In this document: piece by piece, positions 1 to 55,556 of the stretch
Position numbering within the stretch: the stretch's first letter is position 1
Layout of the letters: every line of letters starts with the position of its first letter
From: Lutibacter agarilyticus
GTDB taxonomy: Bacteria > Bacteroidota > Bacteroidia > Flavobacteriales > Flavobacteriaceae
Direction: 5' to 3'
Length of the DNA stretch: 64,000 nt
Assembly: GCF_900188235.1 (NCBI RefSeq)
Contig: NZ_FZNT01000002.1
Coordinates: 124,001-188,000, forward strand
The notes under the pieces: generated by a model
Seen by the model: only the letters and a program-made list of their open reading frames with translations
The model's database searches: none
Told to the model about the DNA's origin: nothing
Made by a program: the position numbers and the translations under genes

Positions 1-352
1 ATTCTTGCTGTTCTTCGGTTAAAACAGCTTTTACTTCATTTTCAAAATCTTCTTTTAATTCTTCCATTTCATTTCTATCAGGTCTTCCCGATTTTGTTTT
101 ATTTTCAACCTCTTCAAAATGTAAAGTGTATAATTCTAGCACTTGTTCCTCTTGTTCGTCTGATAATAAAAGTTCACCTGATAGATTACTAACCATTGTT
201 TTAATTTCTTTGGAAGTTGGTAATTCTGGCGGAGCTTGTTTACCTCCACCTCGTTGACCACCTTGTTGCCCTCTTTGCTGTGCGAAAGCACTTGTTGTTA
301 TTACTAATGCAACCACAACTAATTTCCATATTTTCCTCATTTTTAATTTCAT
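1..352 (-). CDS. Spy/LTXXQ-like periplasmic protein (3' end outside window)
   Basis: This minus-strand gene begins at the ATG at 350-352, or at the in-frame ATG at 338-340, and runs off the left edge, so only about 117 residues are visible. A signal peptide with a hydrophobic core ending in AFAQ is followed by a Gly/Gln/Arg-rich stretch (about residues 25-40). The rest is a strongly acidic helical region containing LSDEQEEQVLELY and ending near LTEEQQ. LT/LS-x-EQ-type motifs and heptad-like acidic helices are typical of the Spy/CpxP and LTXXQ families of small periplasmic chaperone-like proteins. The family call is by composition and motif only, and the C-terminus is unseen. Confidence 0.6.
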   Translation of the reverse strand, partial: MKLKMRKIWKLVVVALVITTSAFAQQRGQQGGQRGGGKQAPPELPTSKEIKTMVSNLSGELLLSDEQEEQVLELYTLHFEEVENKTKSGRPDRNEMEELKEDFENEVKAVLTEEQQE

Positions 353-481
353 AATTTGAAGTTTTTGAAAGTGTTATTTTATTGATTTTTAAATCTTTAT
401 TCAAATAAACGCAAGTTAATAGAAGTTAAAAATTAGAATCAATGAACTACCATATTTTATCTACGAATACTGTTTTAAAAT

Positions 482-598: not shown

Positions 599-1114
599 CT
601 AAATAAATAGTAAAATAATAGTTAAAATAATACCGGAAATTCCTATGTAAATACCTTCTTTAAATATTTTGTTTTTTGGTTTAAACATAATAAATGAAGA
701 AATTACAAAAAATAACAACGACACTCCAAAAAAGATATTTAAGAAATATAAAGGTGATGATGAGGTAGCTTTATGTAAATCTGTAAATTTTTTAATAACA
801 AAAGGTAATTCTTTGGCGGTGTACTTAACGTCTCCTGTTAAAGTATTGTAAGTCCCATTTTTAAAATATACCAAATCGTTTTCAGTTTTTTCAACTTTAA
901 AATTTTTAAAACGAAGAGTTTTACCTAATACCTCAGTTTCTAAATTTGGTTTTAATTTTTTTTCAACAACTTTTTCAGTTTTTAAAAAATCGGTATCTCT
1001 ATAAATAAGTATTACACCACTAAATGCGTAAACTGCCATTATTCCGGCTAAGAAAAAGCCTAAATAACGGTGAAAGATTCTCATGTAAAACTGGGTAGAT
1101 TTATTCTTACTCAT
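599..1114 (-). CDS. PepSY-associated transmembrane protein
   Basis: This 171-residue protein has an N-terminal transmembrane segment (about residues 17-37, in FHRYLGFFLAGIMAVYAFSG) that resembles the first helix of PepSY-TM proteins. A soluble segment of about 80 residues follows, with a PepSY-like FKNGTYNTLTGDV stretch. Two further hydrophobic segments close the protein (about 120-142 and 150-171). PepSY proteins sit in the inner membrane and are often linked to iron reduction or to protease modulation; no specific function can be read here. The start overlaps the stop of the upstream CNNM gene by 8 nt, so the two are probably translationally coupled. Confidence 0.7.
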   Translation of the reverse strand: MSKNKSTQFYMRIFHRYLGFFLAGIMAVYAFSGVILIYRDTDFLKTEKVVEKKLKPNLETEVLGKTLRFKNFKVEKTENDLVYFKNGTYNTLTGDVKYTAKELPFVIKKFTDLHKATSSSPLYFLNIFFGVSLLFFVISSFIMFKPKNKIFKEGIYIGISGIILTIILLFI

Positions 1115-47914: not shown

Positions 47915-48889
47915 ATGAAAAAACTAGGAATTCTTTTAATGATAATCACACTTTTTGTTTCCTGTGATAAAGGAAATCAAAAAAAAACGTTTAAAGAAGC
48001 GAATGGTCGCATTAACAATTTATTAATTGTAATGAAAAATAGCGAATGGGCTGGTGAAATTGGTGATGAATTACGCAAAATTATTGCAGAACCTGTGGTA
48101 GGTTTGCCTCAGCCTGAAGCGCAATTTGAAGTTACACAAGTGCCTTTAGATAATTTTAGCTCTATGTTTAAAGCTACAAGAAGTATTTTAAATGTTGGTA
48201 TTACTGGTGAAGACTCTTTTACTGTAGCGTCTGAAGTATACGCTTCACCTCAAAAAATAATTACAATTACTGGCAAAACCAAAGAGGGTTTAATAAACGA
48301 AATTAAAAAAAATAGTCAGAAAATAATTACCATTTTTAAAAGTGCCGACCTAGAATCTGTAAGAAGGCGTATCTTAAAACAATATTGGAATCCTGAAAAT
48401 ATTGAGACATTTGAAAAGCAAGGCTATAACTTAACCATACCACGTAATTATAAGAAAGTTGAAGATAACGGAGAGTTTGTTTGGTATAGATACCATTTAA
48501 ATGGTGGTAACAGCATGGAGTTATTTGCATACAGTGTACCAATTACTTCAGAAGATGATGAAAACGGAAATAATATTGTTGCCATTAGAAATGCTTTTGG
48601 TAAAAAAAATATTCCCGGTCAAATTGAAGATTCTTATATGATTACTGAAGAAGCATATACGCCGCATATTTTTGAAGTTGAAGTAGATGGTAAAAAAGCC
48701 TTTGAAGCCAGAGGTAAATGGGAAGTTAAAAATGTATATATGGCAGGACCCTTTTTAAGTTACTCAGTAGTTGATAAGAAAAATAACCGTATTGTAGTGG
48801 TTGAAGGTTTAACCTTTGCTCCAGGAATTAACAAGCGCGATTATATGTTTGAACTAGAAGCTATATTGAAGACTTTAAAGATTGAATAG
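47915..48889 (+). CDS. DUF4837 family lipoprotein
   Basis: This 324-residue protein has a lipobox LFVSC (Cys at about residue 17). The body starts NGRINNLLIVMKNSEWAGEIGDELRKIIAEPVVGLPQPEAQFEV, matching DUF4837 of Bacteroidota. Function is unknown. It ends the group xth-ompA-mltD-DUF4837 and is followed by a 40-bp perfect palindrome acting as terminator. Context suggests cell-envelope work. Confidence 0.85.
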   Translation: MKKLGILLMIITLFVSCDKGNQKKTFKEANGRINNLLIVMKNSEWAGEIGDELRKIIAEPVVGLPQPEAQFEVTQVPLDNFSSMFKATRSILNVGITGEDSFTVASEVYASPQKIITITGKTKEGLINEIKKNSQKIITIFKSADLESVRRRILKQYWNPENIETFEKQGYNLTIPRNYKKVEDNGEFVWYRYHLNGGNSMELFAYSVPITSEDDENGNNIVAIRNAFGKKNIPGQIEDSYMITEEAYTPHIFEVEVDGKKAFEARGKWEVKNVYMAGPFLSYSVVDKKNNRIVVVEGLTFAPGINKRDYMFELEAILKTLKIE

Positions 48890-48906
48890 TTAAATTTAAA
48901 GTATTT

Positions 48907-48946
48907 AAAAAAGGGTGTTTTCATTTAAATGAAAACACCCTTTTTT
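48907..48946 (+). terminator. Perfect 40-bp palindromic terminator
   Basis: The sequence is self-complementary over 20 bp each side of its centre at 48926/48927 (core GGGTGTTTTCAT/ATGAAAACACCC), with A-run and T-run outer ends. It lies 17 bp after the DUF4837 stop. Confidence 0.88.
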
Positions 48947-48989
48947 TATGCCTTTTTGTTTCTGATAGGCAGATTTTTTAACTGTTTTT

Positions 48990-49029
48990 AAAACCTAGTT
49001 CATTGATGAAATAACCCAGTTCATTGATT
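48990..49029 (+). promoter_or_regulatory. 21-bp-spaced direct repeat, LytTR-like box upstream of the VTC operon
   Basis: AGTTCATTGAT occurs at 48997-49007 and again at 49018-49028, with exactly 21 bp between the two starts. The core GTTnAT and the two-turn spacing match what is known of LytTR-domain binding sites. The same block, starting AAAACC and with a similar spacer (GAAATAA here, AAAATAA in the other), recurs upstream of cotH. The box ends 43 bp before the VTC start codon. Confidence 0.6.
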
Positions 49030-49071
49030 TTATTTCTTTATAAACCTTAATCCTAGTTTCTTTACTTCACA

Positions 49072-49821
49072 ATGAAACAACAAATAGCACAAATCGTAAA
49101 TAACTTAGATCCTATTTCTTTAAACGAAATGGATGGAGTTTCATTAATGAAAAGAACCGACACAAAATTTATAATACATCAACAACAATTAATTGAAGTA
49201 TTAAAAACGATTACCAATCAATATAAAGTTCTTGAAATTAATAAAAATAGATTGCTTACCTATTCATCATTATACTTTGACACTGAAAATAAAAAATTTT
49301 ATCACGATCACCATAATGGTAAAGTAAATAGAACTAAAGTAAGAATGAGAAAATATATGGAATCTAATAGCTGTTTTCTTGAAATTAAACAAAAAGACGG
49401 TAAAGGAAAAACCACTAAATCTAGAATTCAAATAAAAGATTTTGAAACAGAACTATCACAAAATCTTGTAGAATTCATTAATAGTAAAACTTCAGAAAAA
49501 TTCAACCTTAAACCAAGTATATGGAACAAATTTGACCGAATTACACTGGTAAACAAACATGCTATGGAACGACTTACCATCGATTTAAATCTAGAATTCA
49601 ACATGGAGACTTCTTCAAAATCTTATAAGAATCTGGCAATTATTGAAGTAAAACAACAACGTTTTGACCGTACTTCACCAGTAGTAAAATCACTAAAAAA
49701 AATTGGTATAAACCCTTACAGCATGAGTAAATATTGCATTGGAATGACCAACATATATCCTGAATTAAAATACAATAGATTCAAAAGAAAAATAATAAAA
49801 ATTAATAAAATAACAGCTTAA
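49072..49821 (+). CDS. VTC-domain polyphosphate polymerase-like protein
   Basis: This 249-residue protein is a single VTC domain of the triphosphate-tunnel fold. Conserved basic and acidic tunnel residues are visible: MKRTDTKFI (about residues 26-34), RTKVRMRKYM (about 90-99), FLEIKQKDGKGKTTKSRI (about 104-121), RLTIDLNLEF and AIIEVKQQRFD. Related proteins make polyphosphate from ATP (yeast Vtc4). There is no membrane helix. It precedes a membrane protein (DUF4956) by 12 bp and an outer-membrane protein (DUF2490), and a LytTR-like box lies upstream. Confidence 0.88.
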   Translation: MKQQIAQIVNNLDPISLNEMDGVSLMKRTDTKFIIHQQQLIEVLKTITNQYKVLEINKNRLLTYSSLYFDTENKKFYHDHHNGKVNRTKVRMRKYMESNSCFLEIKQKDGKGKTTKSRIQIKDFETELSQNLVEFINSKTSEKFNLKPSIWNKFDRITLVNKHAMERLTIDLNLEFNMETSSKSYKNLAIIEVKQQRFDRTSPVVKSLKKIGINPYSMSKYCIGMTNIYPELKYNRFKRKIIKINKITA

Positions 49822-49833
49822 AACCAACACCCA

Positions 49834-50430
49834 ATGGAATTCTTAGACATCCCCTTTTTTGATGATGATTTTTTTAAAATGATCTTTAGATTTACACTTA
49901 ATTTTATATTCCTAACCGTTATCATTCGGTTTATATATTACCCAGATTCTAAAAGAAAAGATTACGTTTTCACCTATTATTTAATAAGTATCATTGTATT
50001 TTTCTTGTGCTTTACCCTTAAAAAATACGAAATGGATATTGGAATGGCACTGGGGCTTTTTGCAATTTTCGGAATCATTCGTTACCGAACAAATCCAGTT
50101 GACATTAAAGAAATGACCTATTTATTTGTAGTTATAGGTGTATCTATCATCAACTCATTAGCAAATAAAAAAATGAGTTATGCTGAAATTCTTACAGCCA
50201 ATGCCGTTATTATTTTTGTTCTACTATTCATTGAAAAATACTGGGCTTTAAAACAAGTAGTTTCCAAATCGGTAATCTATGAAAACATTCAGAATATAAA
50301 ACCTGAAAATTACCACCTTTTAAAAGACGATCTTGAAAAAAGAACAGGTTTAGAAATTAACAAAGTAAAAATTGGAGATGTAGATTTTTTAAAAGATACA
50401 GCCAAGGTAACTATCTTCTATTTTAATTAA
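49834..50430 (+). CDS. DUF4956 membrane protein
   Basis: This 198-residue protein has about four transmembrane segments in residues 14-140 (for example FTLNFIFLTVIIRFIYY and YYLISIIVFFLCFTL) and a soluble C-terminal part of about 60 residues. The conserved loop GLFAIFGIIRYRTNPVDIKEMTYLFVVIG is typical of DUF4956. The family often sits beside VTC-domain genes, suggesting that it handles or exports the polymer, though this is unproven. It is located 12 bp after the VTC gene and 11 bp before the DUF2490 gene. Confidence 0.88.
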   Translation: MEFLDIPFFDDDFFKMIFRFTLNFIFLTVIIRFIYYPDSKRKDYVFTYYLISIIVFFLCFTLKKYEMDIGMALGLFAIFGIIRYRTNPVDIKEMTYLFVVIGVSIINSLANKKMSYAEILTANAVIIFVLLFIEKYWALKQVVSKSVIYENIQNIKPENYHLLKDDLEKRTGLEINKVKIGDVDFLKDTAKVTIFYFN

Positions 50431-50441
50431 ACCCTTCAAAA

Positions 50442-51143
50442 ATGAACAAAAAAACAGCACTTATAGCATTGGTTTTAACCCTTTTATTTTTCCAGAAAAA
50501 CTATGCGCAAGAAGAAGACCTAAATGATTGGGAAAGTTGGAATTCAATAGGAATAAAATACAAATTAAACAAAAAATGGACCTTTGAATTAGAGCAACAT
50601 GTTCGCTTAAAAGAAAACATTTCAGAGATAGACAAATACTTTACAGAGTTAGGTGCAAAATATAGTATTACCAAACAATTTAAAGTTGGCGCTGCTGCCA
50701 GATACATTTCTAAAAATGATAACACTGGAAATATTCAAGGCTATGAAGACTATTTTAGATTTCATTTAGACGCAATATACAAACATGAAATTCAGGATTT
50801 TACGTTAGAATACAGACTGAGATATCAAAATAAAAATGAATTAGGTGTAAGCTCTTCAGAAGGAGATTATGCCAATCAACATCTTCGTTTTAAAGCAAGC
50901 GTTGGTTATAATATTAAGAACTGGAAATTAGATCCAGAAGCCTCTGCTGAACTATTTAATCATTTTGAAAAAGGAGAAACAAACGGTTTTGACAAGTATA
51001 GAGTTACTATTGGAACCGAATACAACATGAAAAAATACGGAAAAGTTAAATTATACTATCGATACAAAAAGCAGCTAAATGAAACCTTTCCTGAAACCAA
51101 AAATATTATAGGGCTAAAATACACCTACACCATTAAAAAATAA
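50442..51143 (+). CDS. DUF2490 outer-membrane protein
   Basis: This 233-residue protein has a signal peptide (ending NYAQ at about residue 22) and then alternating amphipathic strands with repeated Tyr/Arg/Lys patterns (WTFELEQHVRLKENISEIDKYFTELGAKYS, FTLEYRLRYQNKNEL). This is typical of a DUF2490 beta-barrel of Bacteroidota. The last strand (YTYTIKK) lacks the usual terminal aromatic residue. It is the third gene of the VTC operon. An outer-membrane role for the system is inferred. Confidence 0.83.
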   Translation: MNKKTALIALVLTLLFFQKNYAQEEDLNDWESWNSIGIKYKLNKKWTFELEQHVRLKENISEIDKYFTELGAKYSITKQFKVGAAARYISKNDNTGNIQGYEDYFRFHLDAIYKHEIQDFTLEYRLRYQNKNELGVSSSEGDYANQHLRFKASVGYNIKNWKLDPEASAELFNHFEKGETNGFDKYRVTIGTEYNMKKYGKVKLYYRYKKQLNETFPETKNIIGLKYTYTIKK

Positions 51144-51178
51144 ATAAAATCAGTTGACAAAACAAACAGACTAAAACC

Positions 51179-51211
51179 TGTCATTCTGAATTTATTTCAG
51201 AATTTCATCAT
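51179..51211 (+). repeat. Dispersed short inverted repeat, copy 2
   Basis: ATTCTGAA (51183-51190) and TTCAGAAT (51196-51203) with a 5-nt spacer repeat the element at 22702-22722, including the flanking GTC and TTTCATCA/TTTATCA. It lies between the DUF2490 and cotH genes. Confidence 0.7.
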
Positions 51212-51252
51212 ATACATATAATCAAATTTACTCACAGATAATGGCTATTAAT

Positions 51253-51290
51253 AAAACCAATTGGTAGATAAAATAAGCTAGTTCATTGAT
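51253..51290 (+). promoter_or_regulatory. LytTR-like box upstream of cotH
   Basis: AAAACC (51253-51258), a degenerate first half AATTGGTAGAT (51259-51269), spacer AAAATAA (51270-51276) and a perfect second half AGTTCATTGAT (51280-51290) copy the layout of the box upstream of the VTC operon, again with 21 bp between half-sites. It ends 70 bp before the cotH start. Confidence 0.55.
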
Positions 51291-51360
51291 TCCTTTTTCA
51301 TGAAAAAAGTAAAACAAGTTATTTTGAATATTATTAAACACCTATTAAATTAAGAATCTT

Positions 51361-52818
51361 ATGAAAAACCCACGTATTAAAATTTCAATCCTACTGTTCA
51401 TAGCATCAGTATTTCTATTTATAAATTGTTCTAATGATGATGTTAGTACAAACGACTCAACAGACGATACAACAAATGAAACAGGAACAACTCCAGTTCT
51501 TGATGATTCTGATTTTGTTGCAACCGATTGGACTACGGAAACACACAGTAAAGATGCCGACCCTAATTTTACCGAAGTTTTTAGCAACACTGAAGTAAAA
51601 CGATTAGATTTTGTTATTTCAGAAGCAAACTGGAATGTAATGTTAAACGATATGACCAATTTATACGGAACTTTTGGTGGTTCAAGTAACGGTTCTGGTG
51701 GTGGTCCTGGTGCGGGTGGCGGAACAAGTTTTTCTGATGAAGACCCTGTTTTTGTGCCAGGATCCGTTTTTTACAATGGTAAAGAATGGTATAAAGTAGG
51801 TTTGCGCTTCAAAGGAAACTCTAGCTTAAAAAGTTCTTGGGAATCAGGAACCTTAAAATTAGCTTTTAAATTAGATTTTGATGAATATGAAGATGATTAT
51901 CCACAAATAAAAAATCAACGTTTTTATGGCTTTAAAAAGTTTAGCTTAAAAAATAATTATGCTGACAAATCTATGCTTAGAGAAAAAGTAGCTGCTGAAG
52001 TATTTAAAAACGCTGGTTTAGCAGTTTCAAATACGGCATTTTATACTTTGTATGTTGACCACGGAAATGGACCAGAATATTTTGGATTGTACACTTTGGT
52101 TGAAGAAGTTGATAATACGGTAATTAAAACTCAATTTTCTAGTAATGATGGTAACTTATACAAGCCCGAAGATTATGGATCAAGCTTTGCTTACGGAACT
52201 TTTAATGAAGATGGTTTTGAGAAAAAAACCAATGAAGATGAAGCAGACTGGACGGATATTAAAAATTTATTTACAGCCTTACATGCAACTACAAGAACAA
52301 GCGACCCAGCAACTTGGAGAACTAATTTAGAAGCCGTTTTAGATGTAGATAATTTTTTAAATTATTTAGCGGTAAACACGATTGTACAAAACTGGGATAC
52401 CTACGGAAGAATGGAGCACAATTATTATTTATACAACAACCCAGATAACAACTTATTAACTTGGATTCCTTGGGATAATAATGAAGCGTTACAAGACGGA
52501 AAAAGAGAAGGTTCGTTAAACTTAAACTTCTCCGATCTTAGTAGTGACGATTGGCCATTAATTGAATATTTATACGAAGATGAGGTTTACAAAGCGAAGT
52601 ACAACACTTATGTAAAAACAACAATTGACGGACCTTTTGAAACAAGTTCTATACAAGGCATTTACGATACCTACTCAAATTTAGTTGAACCTTATGCAAC
52701 TACTGAAATACCTGGTTATACATTTTTAAATAGTAGTAGCGATTTTTATTCAGCAATCTCAACGCTTAAATCACATGCGTCAAGCCGTTCAACGGCTGTT
52801 CAAAACTATTTAGATTAG
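51361..52818 (+). CDS. CotH-kinase family lipoprotein
   Basis: This 485-residue protein has a lipobox INCS (Cys23) followed by an Asp/Thr-rich linker. The CotH domain spans about residues 68-410, with VGLRFKGNSSLKSSW, FSLKNNYADKSMLREKVAAEVFKNAG, YFGLYTLVEEVDNTVI, and the active-site region NWDTYGRMEHNYYLYN leading to LLTWIPWDNNEAL. CotH proteins are atypical kinases first known from spore coats. A Gly/Ser-rich loop lies at about 103-120. It follows the VTC operon and carries the same upstream box. A terminator follows it. Confidence 0.9.
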   Translation: MKNPRIKISILLFIASVFLFINCSNDDVSTNDSTDDTTNETGTTPVLDDSDFVATDWTTETHSKDADPNFTEVFSNTEVKRLDFVISEANWNVMLNDMTNLYGTFGGSSNGSGGGPGAGGGTSFSDEDPVFVPGSVFYNGKEWYKVGLRFKGNSSLKSSWESGTLKLAFKLDFDEYEDDYPQIKNQRFYGFKKFSLKNNYADKSMLREKVAAEVFKNAGLAVSNTAFYTLYVDHGNGPEYFGLYTLVEEVDNTVIKTQFSSNDGNLYKPEDYGSSFAYGTFNEDGFEKKTNEDEADWTDIKNLFTALHATTRTSDPATWRTNLEAVLDVDNFLNYLAVNTIVQNWDTYGRMEHNYYLYNNPDNNLLTWIPWDNNEALQDGKREGSLNLNFSDLSSDDWPLIEYLYEDEVYKAKYNTYVKTTIDGPFETSSIQGIYDTYSNLVEPYATTEIPGYTFLNSSSDFYSAISTLKSHASSRSTAVQNYLD

Positions 52819-52827
52819 TTTAGTTTT

Positions 52828-52879
52828 AATATCTTTGTTTGTACTGCTTATTTTTTGGTATAAACAAAGATATTTTTTT
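52828..52879 (+). terminator. Rho-independent terminator after cotH
   Basis: AATATCTTTGTTT (52828-52840) pairs perfectly with AAACAAAGATATT (52862-52874) around a 21-nt loop, and a T-run follows. It separates cotH from the LytS/LytTR pair. Confidence 0.8.
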
Positions 52880-52913
52880 GTTAAAATATAGATATGCTAG
52901 TAACACATAAAAA

Positions 52914-54026
52914 ATGAAACTTATAAAAAAACATTACAATTTCACCTCTTTTGAACCTTTTATAATTATTGCTTTTTGGGCATTATTATTTACCTCTCCA
53001 TTATTATTTGGACGCTTTGAAGAACAAATTGATTGGAACCACATTACGATAGTTTGGCTTAAATATGTACCACTATTGGCCGTTTTTTTTATAAACCGAT
53101 TTGTTTTATTACCAAAATTATTTTTTGCGAAAAAAAAAGGCATTTACTTTATTGCTACAGGCTTAATTATAGTACTAACAACCTTAGCTTTTTATACTTT
53201 TGACAACAATTCTGGGCAATTACAACAAAATAATAGACCTGAAAGAGTTGAACGTTTTGATGCTCCAGAACCGCCACCAAGATTTTCAGAAAATAGACCG
53301 CCACCAAACAGGCAAAGACCTATAGGACCTAAACCAATTCCTGCATATGCTAATTTTTTAATTCTTGCATTTTTACTGGTTGGTTTTGATACTGGTCTAC
53401 AAATATCCATGCGTTGGGCAAATTTGGAACAAGAAAAATTCAAACTTCAAAAGGAAAATGTAGAAAATCAATTGGCATTTTTAAAAAATCAAGTGAGTCC
53501 GCATTTTTTTATGAATACTTTAAATAACATTCATGCACTGGTTGATATAGATACTGAAGAAGCAAAAAATGCCATTATAAAATTATCAAATTTAATGCGT
53601 CATTTATTGTATGATTCCGAAGGGAAAACAAATCCTATTAAAAAAGAAATTGAATTTATTGAAAGTTATATTGAATTAATGCGCCTTCGTTTTAGCAATA
53701 AAGTTAAAATTAAGGTTGAAATTCCTTCAACAATACCCGATAAATCAATTCCTCCGTTACTGTTTACTTCCTTATTAGAAAATGCTTTTAAACACGGAAT
53801 TAGTTACAAATCTGAATCTTTTATACATGTTTCTCTTTCTTTTACCGAAAAGAATTTGAATTTTGAAATTGAAAATAGTAATCATCCAAAAGTTGCTGAA
53901 GAAGCTTCTGGAATTGGCATAGAAAACACCAAAAAAAGATTAGATTTACTTTATAAAGACACGTATTCTTTTAATGTTATGGAAAACGAACAAACATTTA
54001 AGGTTCATTTAAATTTACCCATATGA
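52914..54026 (+). CDS. LytS-type sensor histidine kinase
   Basis: This 370-residue protein has about four transmembrane segments (roughly residues 14-31, 44-61, 74-91 and 145-165). A Pro/Arg-rich loop (about 98-143; EPPPRFSENRPPPNRQR) lies between the last two. The His_kinase domain follows, with His in NQVSPHFFMNTLNNIHALVD and HATPase motifs PPLLFTSLLENAFKHGI and GIGIENTKKRLDLLY. It faces the membrane without an obvious sensor fold, and its signal is unknown. Its stop overlaps the response-regulator start (ATGA). Confidence 0.93.
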   Translation: MKLIKKHYNFTSFEPFIIIAFWALLFTSPLLFGRFEEQIDWNHITIVWLKYVPLLAVFFINRFVLLPKLFFAKKKGIYFIATGLIIVLTTLAFYTFDNNSGQLQQNNRPERVERFDAPEPPPRFSENRPPPNRQRPIGPKPIPAYANFLILAFLLVGFDTGLQISMRWANLEQEKFKLQKENVENQLAFLKNQVSPHFFMNTLNNIHALVDIDTEEAKNAIIKLSNLMRHLLYDSEGKTNPIKKEIEFIESYIELMRLRFSNKVKIKVEIPSTIPDKSIPPLLFTSLLENAFKHGISYKSESFIHVSLSFTEKNLNFEIENSNHPKVAEEASGIGIENTKKRLDLLYKDTYSFNVMENEQTFKVHLNLPI

Positions 54027-54736
54027 TTAAATGCATTGCCATAGACGACGAGCCTTTAGCTTTAAAACAAATTGAAAGCTATATACATAAAACACCTTTT
54101 TTAAAGCTTTTGGAAAGTTTTGAAAGTCCGCTTGAAGCAATTTCATATTTGCAAGAAACGGATGTGGCGCTTATGTTTGTTGATATAAATATGCCCGATT
54201 TAAATGGATTAGATTTTGTAAAATCGTTAGAAAATCCACCAAAAATAATTTTCACAACCGCTTATAGCGAATATGCTGTTGAAGGATTTAGAGTTGATGC
54301 CATTGATTATTTATTGAAACCTATTGATTATGCAACCTTTTTAAAAGCATCAAATAAAGCAAAATCTTGGTTTGATGTTCACGAAAAACAACCCGAACAA
54401 CTACAAAGCAATGAAGATTTTTTATTCATTAAATCTGAATACAAAATAGTTCGTATAAAACTTGATGATATTAGATATATTGAAGGTATGCGTGAATATA
54501 TTCGCATTCATTTAACCAATGAAAAACCAATTATGACGCTTTTAAGTATGAAGGCAATGGAAGCACAATTAGCTAACAAAAACTTTATGCGCGTACACCG
54601 ATCTTATATTGTGAATTTGAACAAAATTACCACTATTGAACGCAACAGAATTGTTTTTGATAAAGTGTACATTCCGGTAAGCGACCTATACAAAGAGAAA
54701 TTTCAACAATTTGTTGAAGGCAATTTTTTATCTTAA
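54023..54736 (+). CDS. LytTR-family response regulator
   Basis: This 237-residue regulator has a receiver domain (residues 1-125), with acidic AIDDEPLALKQIE, the phospho-acceptor Asp in MFVDINMPDLNGLDF (about residue 54), and the conserved Lys in LLKPIDYATF. The LytTR DNA-binding domain (about 135-235) has IRYIEGMREYIRIHL and MRVHRSYIVNLNKI. LytTR domains bind direct repeats about 21 bp apart. Two such boxes lie 2.7 and 5.0 kb upstream, before cotH and the VTC operon. It is coupled to its kinase by a 4-bp overlap. Confidence 0.95.
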   Translation: MIKCIAIDDEPLALKQIESYIHKTPFLKLLESFESPLEAISYLQETDVALMFVDINMPDLNGLDFVKSLENPPKIIFTTAYSEYAVEGFRVDAIDYLLKPIDYATFLKASNKAKSWFDVHEKQPEQLQSNEDFLFIKSEYKIVRIKLDDIRYIEGMREYIRIHLTNEKPIMTLLSMKAMEAQLANKNFMRVHRSYIVNLNKITTIERNRIVFDKVYIPVSDLYKEKFQQFVEGNFLS

Positions 54737-54744
54737 TTACATTT

Positions 54745-54774
54745 TTTGTGGCTAAACTAGCGTAAAGCCACAAA
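54745..54774. terminator. Weak hairpin between convergent LytTR and lamin-tail genes
   Basis: TTTGTGGCT (54745-54753) pairs with AGCCACAAA (54766-54774) around a 12-nt loop. T-runs are short, so termination strength is doubtful. Confidence 0.5.
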
Positions 54775-54791
54775 TTAATATCATATATAAA

Positions 54792-55556
54792 TTAGAAACC
54801 TGTAAACAAACCAACGTTTGAGTAATCCCAAGCTCTATCATCAGTTAATATCCATTGAGAACTTACAGGATCTTCACCTTTAGATGTTACCCAATCTGTT
54901 GTAGGCTCTTTTGTATCTGATTTTCTCCAAAAAGTTCTATTCCGAACGTTTGTTTCACCTGCAACTGTCCAGTTAAAATTATTTCTTGAACTACTAGAAC
55001 CTGAAGCTGTAATTCTAGCAACATTTGGATCACCAAAAACATCAATTATAGAATATGCTGTTCCACTTAAAGTGTATGCGCCTTCAGTATCTTTTTTCAA
55101 TAAGGCAATAGCACTATTTCCACTTAACTGAAGCGGAATACTCGCATTGGCATTGGCAGAGCTTGTTGTTCCCCACTCAATATCACTTGGTACTTTTGTG
55201 GCATTGGCTATTGGTGAAGCTATTACATAAGCTGTATTTGCTTCTAACAATGCATCAAAAAGTAAAAAATTATTTTCATCAGAGAAATCCCAATCTGTTA
55301 AAGTGTCTTCATCAAAAACAGCATGATAGCCAATGGCATATTCCGATAAGTCTACCACGTCAGGTGTTCCGTTGTACAATTCAACATAATGGTTTCTATC
55401 TCCATCATCGGTGTTTACACCTGTTGAAATTTCTGAAATAATCATATCTGAGATACCAACCTCTGGTGGAATAATAGGTTCGTCAAAGCTAATTTCAGAA
55501 GAGCACCCTATTGCAAATACTATTGCAAATAATCCTATATATAATTTATTTTTCAT
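54792..55556 (-). CDS. Lamin-tail-domain lipoprotein
   Basis: Starting at the ATG at 55554-55556 (an upstream ATG adds a non-signal extension), this 254-residue protein has a lipobox FAIGCS (Cys at about residue 18). It then has a lamin tail domain (about 35-180): MIISEISTGVNTDDGDRNHYVELYNGTPDVVDLSEYAIGYH. Such domains are found in secreted nucleases and surface proteins, but no nuclease motif is visible. It is the last gene of the isoaspartyl/porin operon, 11 bp after the second porin gene. Confidence 0.82.
   Translation of the reverse strand: MKNKLYIGLFAIVFAIGCSSEISFDEPIIPPEVGISDMIISEISTGVNTDDGDRNHYVELYNGTPDVVDLSEYAIGYHAVFDEDTLTDWDFSDENNFLLFDALLEANTAYVIASPIANATKVPSDIEWGTTSSANANASIPLQLSGNSAIALLKKDTEGAYTLSGTAYSIIDVFGDPNVARITASGSSSSRNNFNWTVAGETNVRNRTFWRKSDTKEPTTDWVTSKGEDPVSSQWILTDDRAWDYSNVGLFTGF

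Follow-up and report, generated by a model that had tools for sequence, protein, structure and literature searches.

A candidate LytTR operator shared by envelope genes of Lutibacter agarilyticus and its relatives

Does the two-component system encoded beside a VTC operon and the gene cotH in Lutibacter agarilyticus control both transcription units through a shared operator? The question concerns a stretch of 64,000 nucleotides (in the following, the window) on contig 11 of a 4.1-Mb genome. It was raised by an initial annotation that had noticed similar direct repeats in front of both units and assigned them to a LytS/LytTR pair at 52914-54736. A histidine kinase and a LytTR response regulator were indeed found at this position. 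However, the kinase can only be called LytS-like, as it matches only PF06580; LytS proper carries a 5TM-5TMR_LYT sensor domain, for which the kinase gave no Pfam match at E 0.001. The regulator combines a receiver domain (PF00072) with a C-terminal LytTR domain (PF04397). Judging from sequence comparisons, the repeats (boxes) are very probably operators of this regulator, and the data are best read as a LytTR regulon in Bacteroidota that comprises envelope genes and has not been described before; it would be autoregulated in some lineages. Control of the VTC and cotH units by the pair, as originally proposed, is strongly suggested by the distribution of the boxes and by their fixed spacing to a -7 promoter element.

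Repeat boxes and their specificity

Upstream of the VTC gene, AGTTCATTGAT was found twice (48997-49007 and 49018-49028) with a spacing of 21 bp, and upstream of cotH, AATTGGTAGAT at 51259 is followed by AGTTCATTGAT at 51280, again spaced by 21 bp. Both blocks had been located correctly. The 7-bp GAAATAA/AAAATAA, earlier described as a spacer, is present as well; however, it belongs to the motif, as the AAAAT that follows the first half is conserved in relatives. A GTTnRK-type core is regarded as typical of LytTR sites. Here, GTTCAT forms the second half-site of all three boxes of the window (Table 1) and the first half of box 1, and the first half-sites of boxes 2 and 3 (ATTGGT and ATTCGT) depart from a GTT-type core. 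According to the available part of PMC4847170, LytTR sites share no common consensus.

When up to three mismatches were allowed, the exact two-repeat pattern had one match in the window, compared with a mean of 0.00 in 100 shuffles, and two matches in the whole genome. The second of these, on contig 8 with three mismatches, is at chance level, because the pattern read backwards also gave one match. With the same tolerance, a pattern covering both blocks yielded three genome-wide matches and none in the backwards control; its third match, box 3 (438-469, minus strand), had been missed before and precedes the gene of a small secreted protein. The direct-repeat period was 21, with 6.29 of 9 positions identical at this shift and 4.16 at the next best among shifts 15-27. 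Half-sites of 9 bp with this period leave 12 nt between them, which fits the geometry of two-repeat LytTR operators, given as 9-11-nt repeats separated by 11-13 nt (PMC4847170) or as 9-bp repeats 10-13 bp apart (PMC11347149) in the accessible parts of these papers.

The 80 top-ranking loci with genes for relatives of the LytTR protein were collected, and a position weight matrix (PWM) was seeded with 13 sites, three from the window, nine from other Flavobacteriaceae and one from a Bacteroidales locus. In the 80 loci and the window, which served in PWM training too, the seeded PWM found 63 sites of at least 13 bits, and none was found in Markov sequences or with permuted columns. By the fifth round, 84 sites reached at least 17 bits with both controls at zero, and two Markov matches reached 13 bits. 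One of the 84 sites (54689 in the window) falls within the LytTR gene itself.

In addition, a sequence-only model (R1) was trained on 39 boxes from loci not labelled Flavobacteriaceae, i.e. on 39 of 43 sites with a downstream open reading frame (ORF), with L024:3921, L028:6485, L043:5358 and the minus-strand L051:1564 omitted. Model R2, built from the boxes read backwards, was the reversed control for R1, and R3 was trained on 30 of the 37 Flavobacteriaceae sites (omitted were L003:5335, L004:1782, L007:5363, L013:2030, L013:4315, L015:2674 and L017:199). In the bacterium's own genome, where 150 of 6934 first-look candidates were scored, the top three R1 matches were the three boxes (E values in Table 1), and the next candidate had an E value of 0.079. 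The box is thus no widespread genomic element, only three strong sites being present. Across 16 Flavobacteriaceae sources (320,160 bases), R1 gave 26 matches at E ≤ 1e-3 and the reversed boxes none (best 0.018); at E ≤ 0.1, R2 found one match among 81 sources and three among the 16.

Co-occurrence of boxes and regulator

The genome holds eight LytTR genes, that is, seven besides the one in question, and an orthologue profile separated the window's LytTR protein (430 bits) from its best own paralogue (226 bits). In a sample of 38 genomes of the genus, 11 carry an orthologue (above 420 bits). At E ≤ 1e-4, R1 (27 sites) matched 10 of these 11 genomes and none of the 27 others (Fisher's exact p 2.3e-8, shared ancestry ignored), and the box therefore tracks the LytTR gene in the genus; the eleventh positive, G283, has three R1 sites with E values from 2.9e-4 to 6.6e-4. 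All seven genus genomes with a VTC gene (E ≤ 1e-10) are orthologue-positive, and in four genomes with the orthologue and no VTC match (G253, G269, G272 and G273), boxes stand before cotH, DUF4956 or the small gene. A family sample comprised 249 genomes, three of them with an orthologue (above 430 bits); VTC occurs in 25, and of these only G000 has the orthologue. Boxes were present before the VTC genes of orthologue-carrying genomes in seven of seven cases (33.8-43.9 bits; for G282 on a neighbouring contig end), compared with none of 26 VTC loci from 24 genomes lacking the orthologue (at most 11.6 bits in the stretch examined). In orthologous loci, boxes were found before VTC as well as cotH genes.

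This distribution bears on the possibility that the boxes are operators of some other regulator, for example one of the seven other LytTR proteins, which merely co-occurs with the pair. Eight LytTR genes in one genome leave room for it, as does a sister motif with TCGAT half-sites and a 21-bp period in Flavobacteriaceae without the orthologue, which suggests that related regulators probably use related boxes. However, box presence follows this particular orthologue in the genus, in several lineages a box stands before this kinase gene or a relative of it, and no site was found within approximately 1.5 kb on each side of the seven paralogues (best 2.2 bits). We regard another regulator as improbable; given the seven other LytTR genes, control by this particular pair is what we infer.

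The sister motif also has AAAA after its first half and was seen in L152, L154-L156, L158, L159, L161, L163-L167, L171 and L173; an outer-membrane efflux (OEP) gene follows it in L152. It is probably the operator of another LytTR subfamily.

The boxes could also have been inherited together with a block of genes without being functionally connected to the regulator. In most relatives examined, a stretch of 10-15 kb holds both targets and regulator, and the 10-kb flanks that were sampled favour nearby targets. Against such purely syntenic inheritance, VTC loci without the regulator carry no box, and a site in G253 is approximately 274 kb away from its regulator. Moreover, G262, the most similar relative seen, has the boxes of the small gene, VTC and cotH in one row, the small gene directly preceding VTC, whereas in L. 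agarilyticus the small gene and box 3 are approximately 48 kb from box 1, beside a Mutator-family transposase gene. A gene that moved and yet kept its box is hard to explain by function-free inheritance of one block, and we consider this explanation highly improbable.

Several observations weigh against the operator reading and have to be set beside these contrasts. The R1 boxes were picked with a PWM partly seeded by the window's own boxes, so that the R1 genome test was not fully blind, and, apart from the window's own genome, four of the genus genomes are records that had also supplied PWM seed or training loci. At E ≤ 1e-3, R1 matched 11 of 11 orthologue-positive genus genomes, but also 6 of the 27 negatives. 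The genus contrast takes no account of common descent, completeness is below 90% or contamination above 5% in 9 of the 38 genomes, and for the most part regulator, targets and boxes are found in synteny. In the family sample, R1 matched two of three positives (G222 reaching 1.2e-4 at best) and 9 of 246 negatives at E ≤ 1e-4, and three of three positives and 41 of 246 negatives at E ≤ 1e-3. A class sample of 396 genomes contained seven with an orthologue-like protein (E ≤ 1e-100, 340-441 bits); here, R3 matched three of these seven and 2 of the 389 others at E ≤ 1e-4, and again three of seven and 10 of 389 at E ≤ 1e-3. One of the R3 matches, in G566, lies far from this genome's own LytTR gene and may be due to chance. 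Finally, a site of at least 20 bits was present in 43 of the 80 orthologue loci, and 37 had none in the stretch examined, several of them with 20 kb.

The class-wide test is weakened by the rarity of orthologue-like proteins and by stricter filters, which lose weak sites. Within the stretch around its regulator, G566 has a PWM site of 25.7 bits. Four orthologue-like class genomes had no R3 match; in three of them, the genome's own kinase gene is preceded by a PWM site of 23-35 bits, and in the fourth (L262) no PWM site was found before the kinase gene. Among the nine family negatives matched at E ≤ 1e-4, seven are instances of the sister motif. Two genomes of family f49, G571 (L267) and G501 (L268), have R3 sites with E values of 3.8e-6 and 4.6e-5 and no orthologue match at E 1e-100.

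Promoter geometry and predicted regulon

In an ungapped alignment of 90 sites, a TWnnTTTG block stands at +58 to +65 from the core start. T[AT]nnTTT[GA] begins exactly at +58 in 67 of 87 distinct sites (sites of at least 24 bits, 89 before near-duplicates were removed), and any other offset was counted five times at most. The PWM columns span -6 to +39, and the columns of this element are therefore outside the PWM. Upstream of it, TTT at +35 to +37 is conserved among the 90 sites and ends 20 bases before the -7 element; it may represent the -33 element. The available text of PMC7366714 and PMC2483708 gives TAnnTTTG as the -7 consensus of the primary sigma factor in Bacteroides and Flavobacterium. 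With its fixed distance to the -7 element, the box is located just upstream of the -33 region, the position expected for an activator site.

If the boxes are operators of the LytTR regulator, activation is likely, judging from this position. The same regulator could act as a repressor, the fixed spacing then reflecting the closeness to -33: the conserved T-run at +34 to +37 is only bases away from the operator, and repression from an operator that overlaps -35 is described for the LytTR protein CoxC (PMC11347149, in part). However, the repeats end upstream of -33 at a fixed distance, as described in the accessible part of the same paper for most LytTR regulators, which activate and bind upstream of -35. 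Repression thus appears unlikely to us. An alternative sigma factor of the extracytoplasmic function (ECF) type might also recognize the box and would account for the fixed distance to the downstream element, but the downstream TWnnTTTG/A is close to the primary sigma consensus cited above, and the box co-occurs with a LytTR gene. To our knowledge, sigma factors do not recognize an upstream tandem repeat with a 21-bp period, and an ECF site is extremely unlikely. The box was also considered as an RNA element and rejected as such, given zero Rfam matches anywhere in the window and the conserved -7 element downstream of the box, which marks it as promoter DNA. A sigma-70 scan of 48880-54900 gave 25 promoter-like sites and no excess over the shuffle mean of 31.2.

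With regard to the transcripts, the terminator-like hairpin in front of the VTC operon suggests that the operon probably begins its own transcript, and a second hairpin between cotH and the kinase gene indicates that the kinase-regulator pair may have its own promoter here; no box was found upstream of the pair in this genome. The VTC start codon follows 7 bases after the -7 element (49057-49072), and the core-to-start distance is 43-44 in six genus genomes, which suggests a leaderless VTC mRNA or one with a very short leader.

Table 1. Predicted features of the window discussed in the text.
Feature	Position	Strand	Details
Box 1, LytTR-type direct repeat before VTC operon	48997..49028	+	core TTCATTGATGAAATAACCCAGTTCATTGAT at 48999-49028; exact match; R1 E 4.8e-7 genome-wide
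Box 2, before cotH	51259..51290	+	core TTGGTAGATAAAATAAGCTAGTTCATTGAT at 51261-51290; R1 E 1.9e-7
Box 3, before small secreted protein gene	438..469	-	core TTCGTAGATAAAATATGGTAGTTCATTGAT at 467-438; R1 E 8.2e-6
TTTC, expected -33 position of VTC promoter (putative)	49033..49036	+	+34..+37 from core start
TTTCTTTA, -7 element of VTC promoter (TWnnTTTG/A)	49057..49064	+	+58 from core start
TTTT, expected -33 position of cotH promoter (putative)	51295..51298	+	conserved TTT in aligned sites
TTATTTTG, -7 element of cotH promoter	51319..51326	+	+58 from core start
TTTATTTG, -7 element of small gene's promoter	402..409	-	+58 from core start
Small secreted helical protein	1..352	-	137 aa; extends 61 bases past the window's left edge; L092 ORF 1002-1415
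Terminator-like hairpin after gene preceding VTC operon	48907..48946	+	terminator scan
VTC-domain protein (polyphosphate-polymerase-like)	49072..49821	+	249 aa; PF09359 E 7.4e-33, 114.5 bits
DUF4956 protein	49834..50430	+	198 aa; PF16316 E 5.1e-54
DUF2490 protein (predicted barrel-like)	50442..51143	+	233 aa; PF10677 E 3.4e-27; last gene of VTC operon
cotH, secreted lipoprotein-like, CotH kinase domain	51361..52818	+	485 aa; PF08757 E 4.4e-72, 243.7 bits
Terminator-like hairpin and T-run, between cotH and kinase gene	52828..52874	+	RNA fold -19.2 kcal/mol, z -2.48; not in the consensus scanner's list
Sensor histidine kinase (His_kinase, LytS-like)	52914..54026	+	370 aa; PF06580 E 1.4e-23, residues 186-263
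LytTR response regulator	54023..54736	+	237 aa; PF04397 E 3.3e-21, PF00072 E 1.5e-18; proposed box binder

The VTC, DUF4956, DUF2490 and CotH genes adjoin the kinase and regulator genes in Lutibacter, Maribacter and several Bacteroidales loci, and in many of the 80 loci, kinase and regulator stand alone. A same-strand ORF starts within 250 bases of 78 of the 81 sites of at least 20 bits. The 80 downstream proteins (one per site) fell into groups of 34, 15, 13, 5, 4, 3 and 3 members and three singles. The group of 34 is a chained one of CotH, Lcl_C, Cthe_2159 and arylsulfotransferase-like proteins; among the others are VTC (15), the small helical protein (13), ferredoxin (5), the kinase itself (4) and EF-hand proteins (3). 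Boxes before the kinase gene were found in L018, L035, L051 and L069 and in the more distant L261, L263 and L264, with His_kinase in all three of the latter, which suggests autoregulation in these lineages. In G255, a ferredoxin gene is followed by genes of a Ferric_reduct membrane protein and an FAD_binding_2 flavoprotein. Apparent operons of this kind with a box are located at L288:11390-14083, L281:10528-13141 and L010:5988-8737 (domains tested in L288), and the flavoprotein has a twin-arginine-like start by eye. It is possible that the ferredoxin operon is an extracytoplasmic redox unit of the same regulon. Weaker box-like sites of 19-21 bits precede small secreted Thr-rich proteins at L127:2745 (plus strand) and L136:2251 (minus strand), near LytTR genes of a 300-bit group.

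At the protein level, the window's CotH protein aligns with the CotH structure 5jd9/5jda (E 1.2e-11) and retains the QN-x-D and IPWD stretches, whose residues are presumably catalytic. The VTC protein, a putative polyphosphate polymerase, matched VTC4 structures weakly (E 0.062). The start codon of the small secreted protein lies 85 bases past the core end of box 3. Besides the window's own copy, 12 box-linked homologues were present in the first locus set. The protein itself had no Pfam match at E 0.001; among the 12 members, weak hints pointed to DUF4890 (6), Metal_resist (6) and LTXXQ (5), with best E values of 5.9e-6, 0.00096 and 0.0042, respectively. A model of the L004 homologue has four helices with a pLDDT of at least 90 in 78 of 129 residues, and no fold in a structure search reached E ≤ 0.001 (best 0.27). 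The Mutator-family transposase ORF, immediately left of the window (L092:85-726), corresponds to the C-terminal half of its Pfam profile only. A membrane protein encoded beside the small gene (602-1114, minus strand) has weak PepSY_TM matches that do not reach the curated cut-off; a protein that resembles it by eye, with PepSY_TM at the cut-off, is encoded at L010:4632-5150 within the CotH/ferredoxin/LytTR cluster of Maribacter.

Taken together, we propose that the linked kinase would phosphorylate the regulator at D54, which is invariant across 29 aligned sequences and the likely phospho-acceptor. Two LytTR domains would then occupy the pair of 9-bp half-sites, which lie two helical turns (21 bp) apart and directly upstream of -33, and the bound regulator would recruit RNA polymerase to a promoter with its -7 element at a fixed distance. 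In L. agarilyticus, three units would be switched on together, namely the VTC-DUF4956-DUF2490 operon, cotH and the small secreted helical protein. In relatives, the regulon may add Lcl_C, Cthe_2159 and EF-hand secreted proteins and the ferredoxin/ferric-reductase-like/flavoprotein operon; the kinase-regulator operon itself may belong to it in some lineages. The output is probably a modification of the cell envelope.

These results define, to base resolution, a regulator together with its probable operator, the geometry of the promoters and a compact candidate regulon. They give a handle on what VTC, DUF4956, DUF2490 and CotH proteins do apart from sporulation and yeast vacuoles, and further regulon members can be looked for with the box in orthologue-carrying genomes. 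That a partly autoregulated LytTR regulon with a polyphosphate-polymerase-like enzyme, a secretory CotH kinase, surface lipoproteins and an extracytoplasmic redox operon extends over the whole phylum Bacteroidota is a tentative idea, which we hold to be possible rather than probable. If true, it would amount to an envelope-modification response that has had no name so far and that turns on phosphate-based and redox chemistry together outside the cytoplasm.

Comparison with known systems

LytTR regulators are common in Bacteroidota. A literature search found no operator or regulon for a LytTR regulator of this phylum and no paper joining "CotH kinase" and "LytTR", which is weak evidence, as most subscription journals lie outside its coverage. 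Among characterized systems, AgrA of Staphylococcus aureus, the activator of agr P2 and P3, is likewise a LytTR response regulator. However, its operator sequence and promoter type are different, the latter being TWnnTTTG in Lutibacter, and its kinase belongs to another class.

The pairs YpdA/YpdB and BtsS/BtsR of Escherichia coli are of the LytS/LytTR type as well. YpdB and BtsR target transporter genes there, whereas the candidate targets here are envelope genes. BtsR is also the best NCBIfam match of our regulator, but its 123 bits are below the cut-off of 246 bits, and the regulator is therefore not called BtsR. Similar to the boxes, the operator of YpdB is a tandem repeat (PMC4847170, in part).

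With respect to the target genes, BT3498-99 of Bacteroides thetaiotaomicron, also a member of the Bacteroidota, is a DUF4956-DUF2490 pair, which was 7.6-fold lower under iron depletion (P value 0.175); the available text of that work gives neither regulator nor operator (PMC10434189). A parallel in gene content is the Pel accessory block cotH-PPP-DUF4956-DUF4832 of streptococci and clostridia, for which the accessible part of PMC7112168 describes no LytTR operator. Both systems bring CotH, polyphosphate-polymerase and DUF4956 genes together, but in L. agarilyticus, the module is divided between two units that have the boxes in common.

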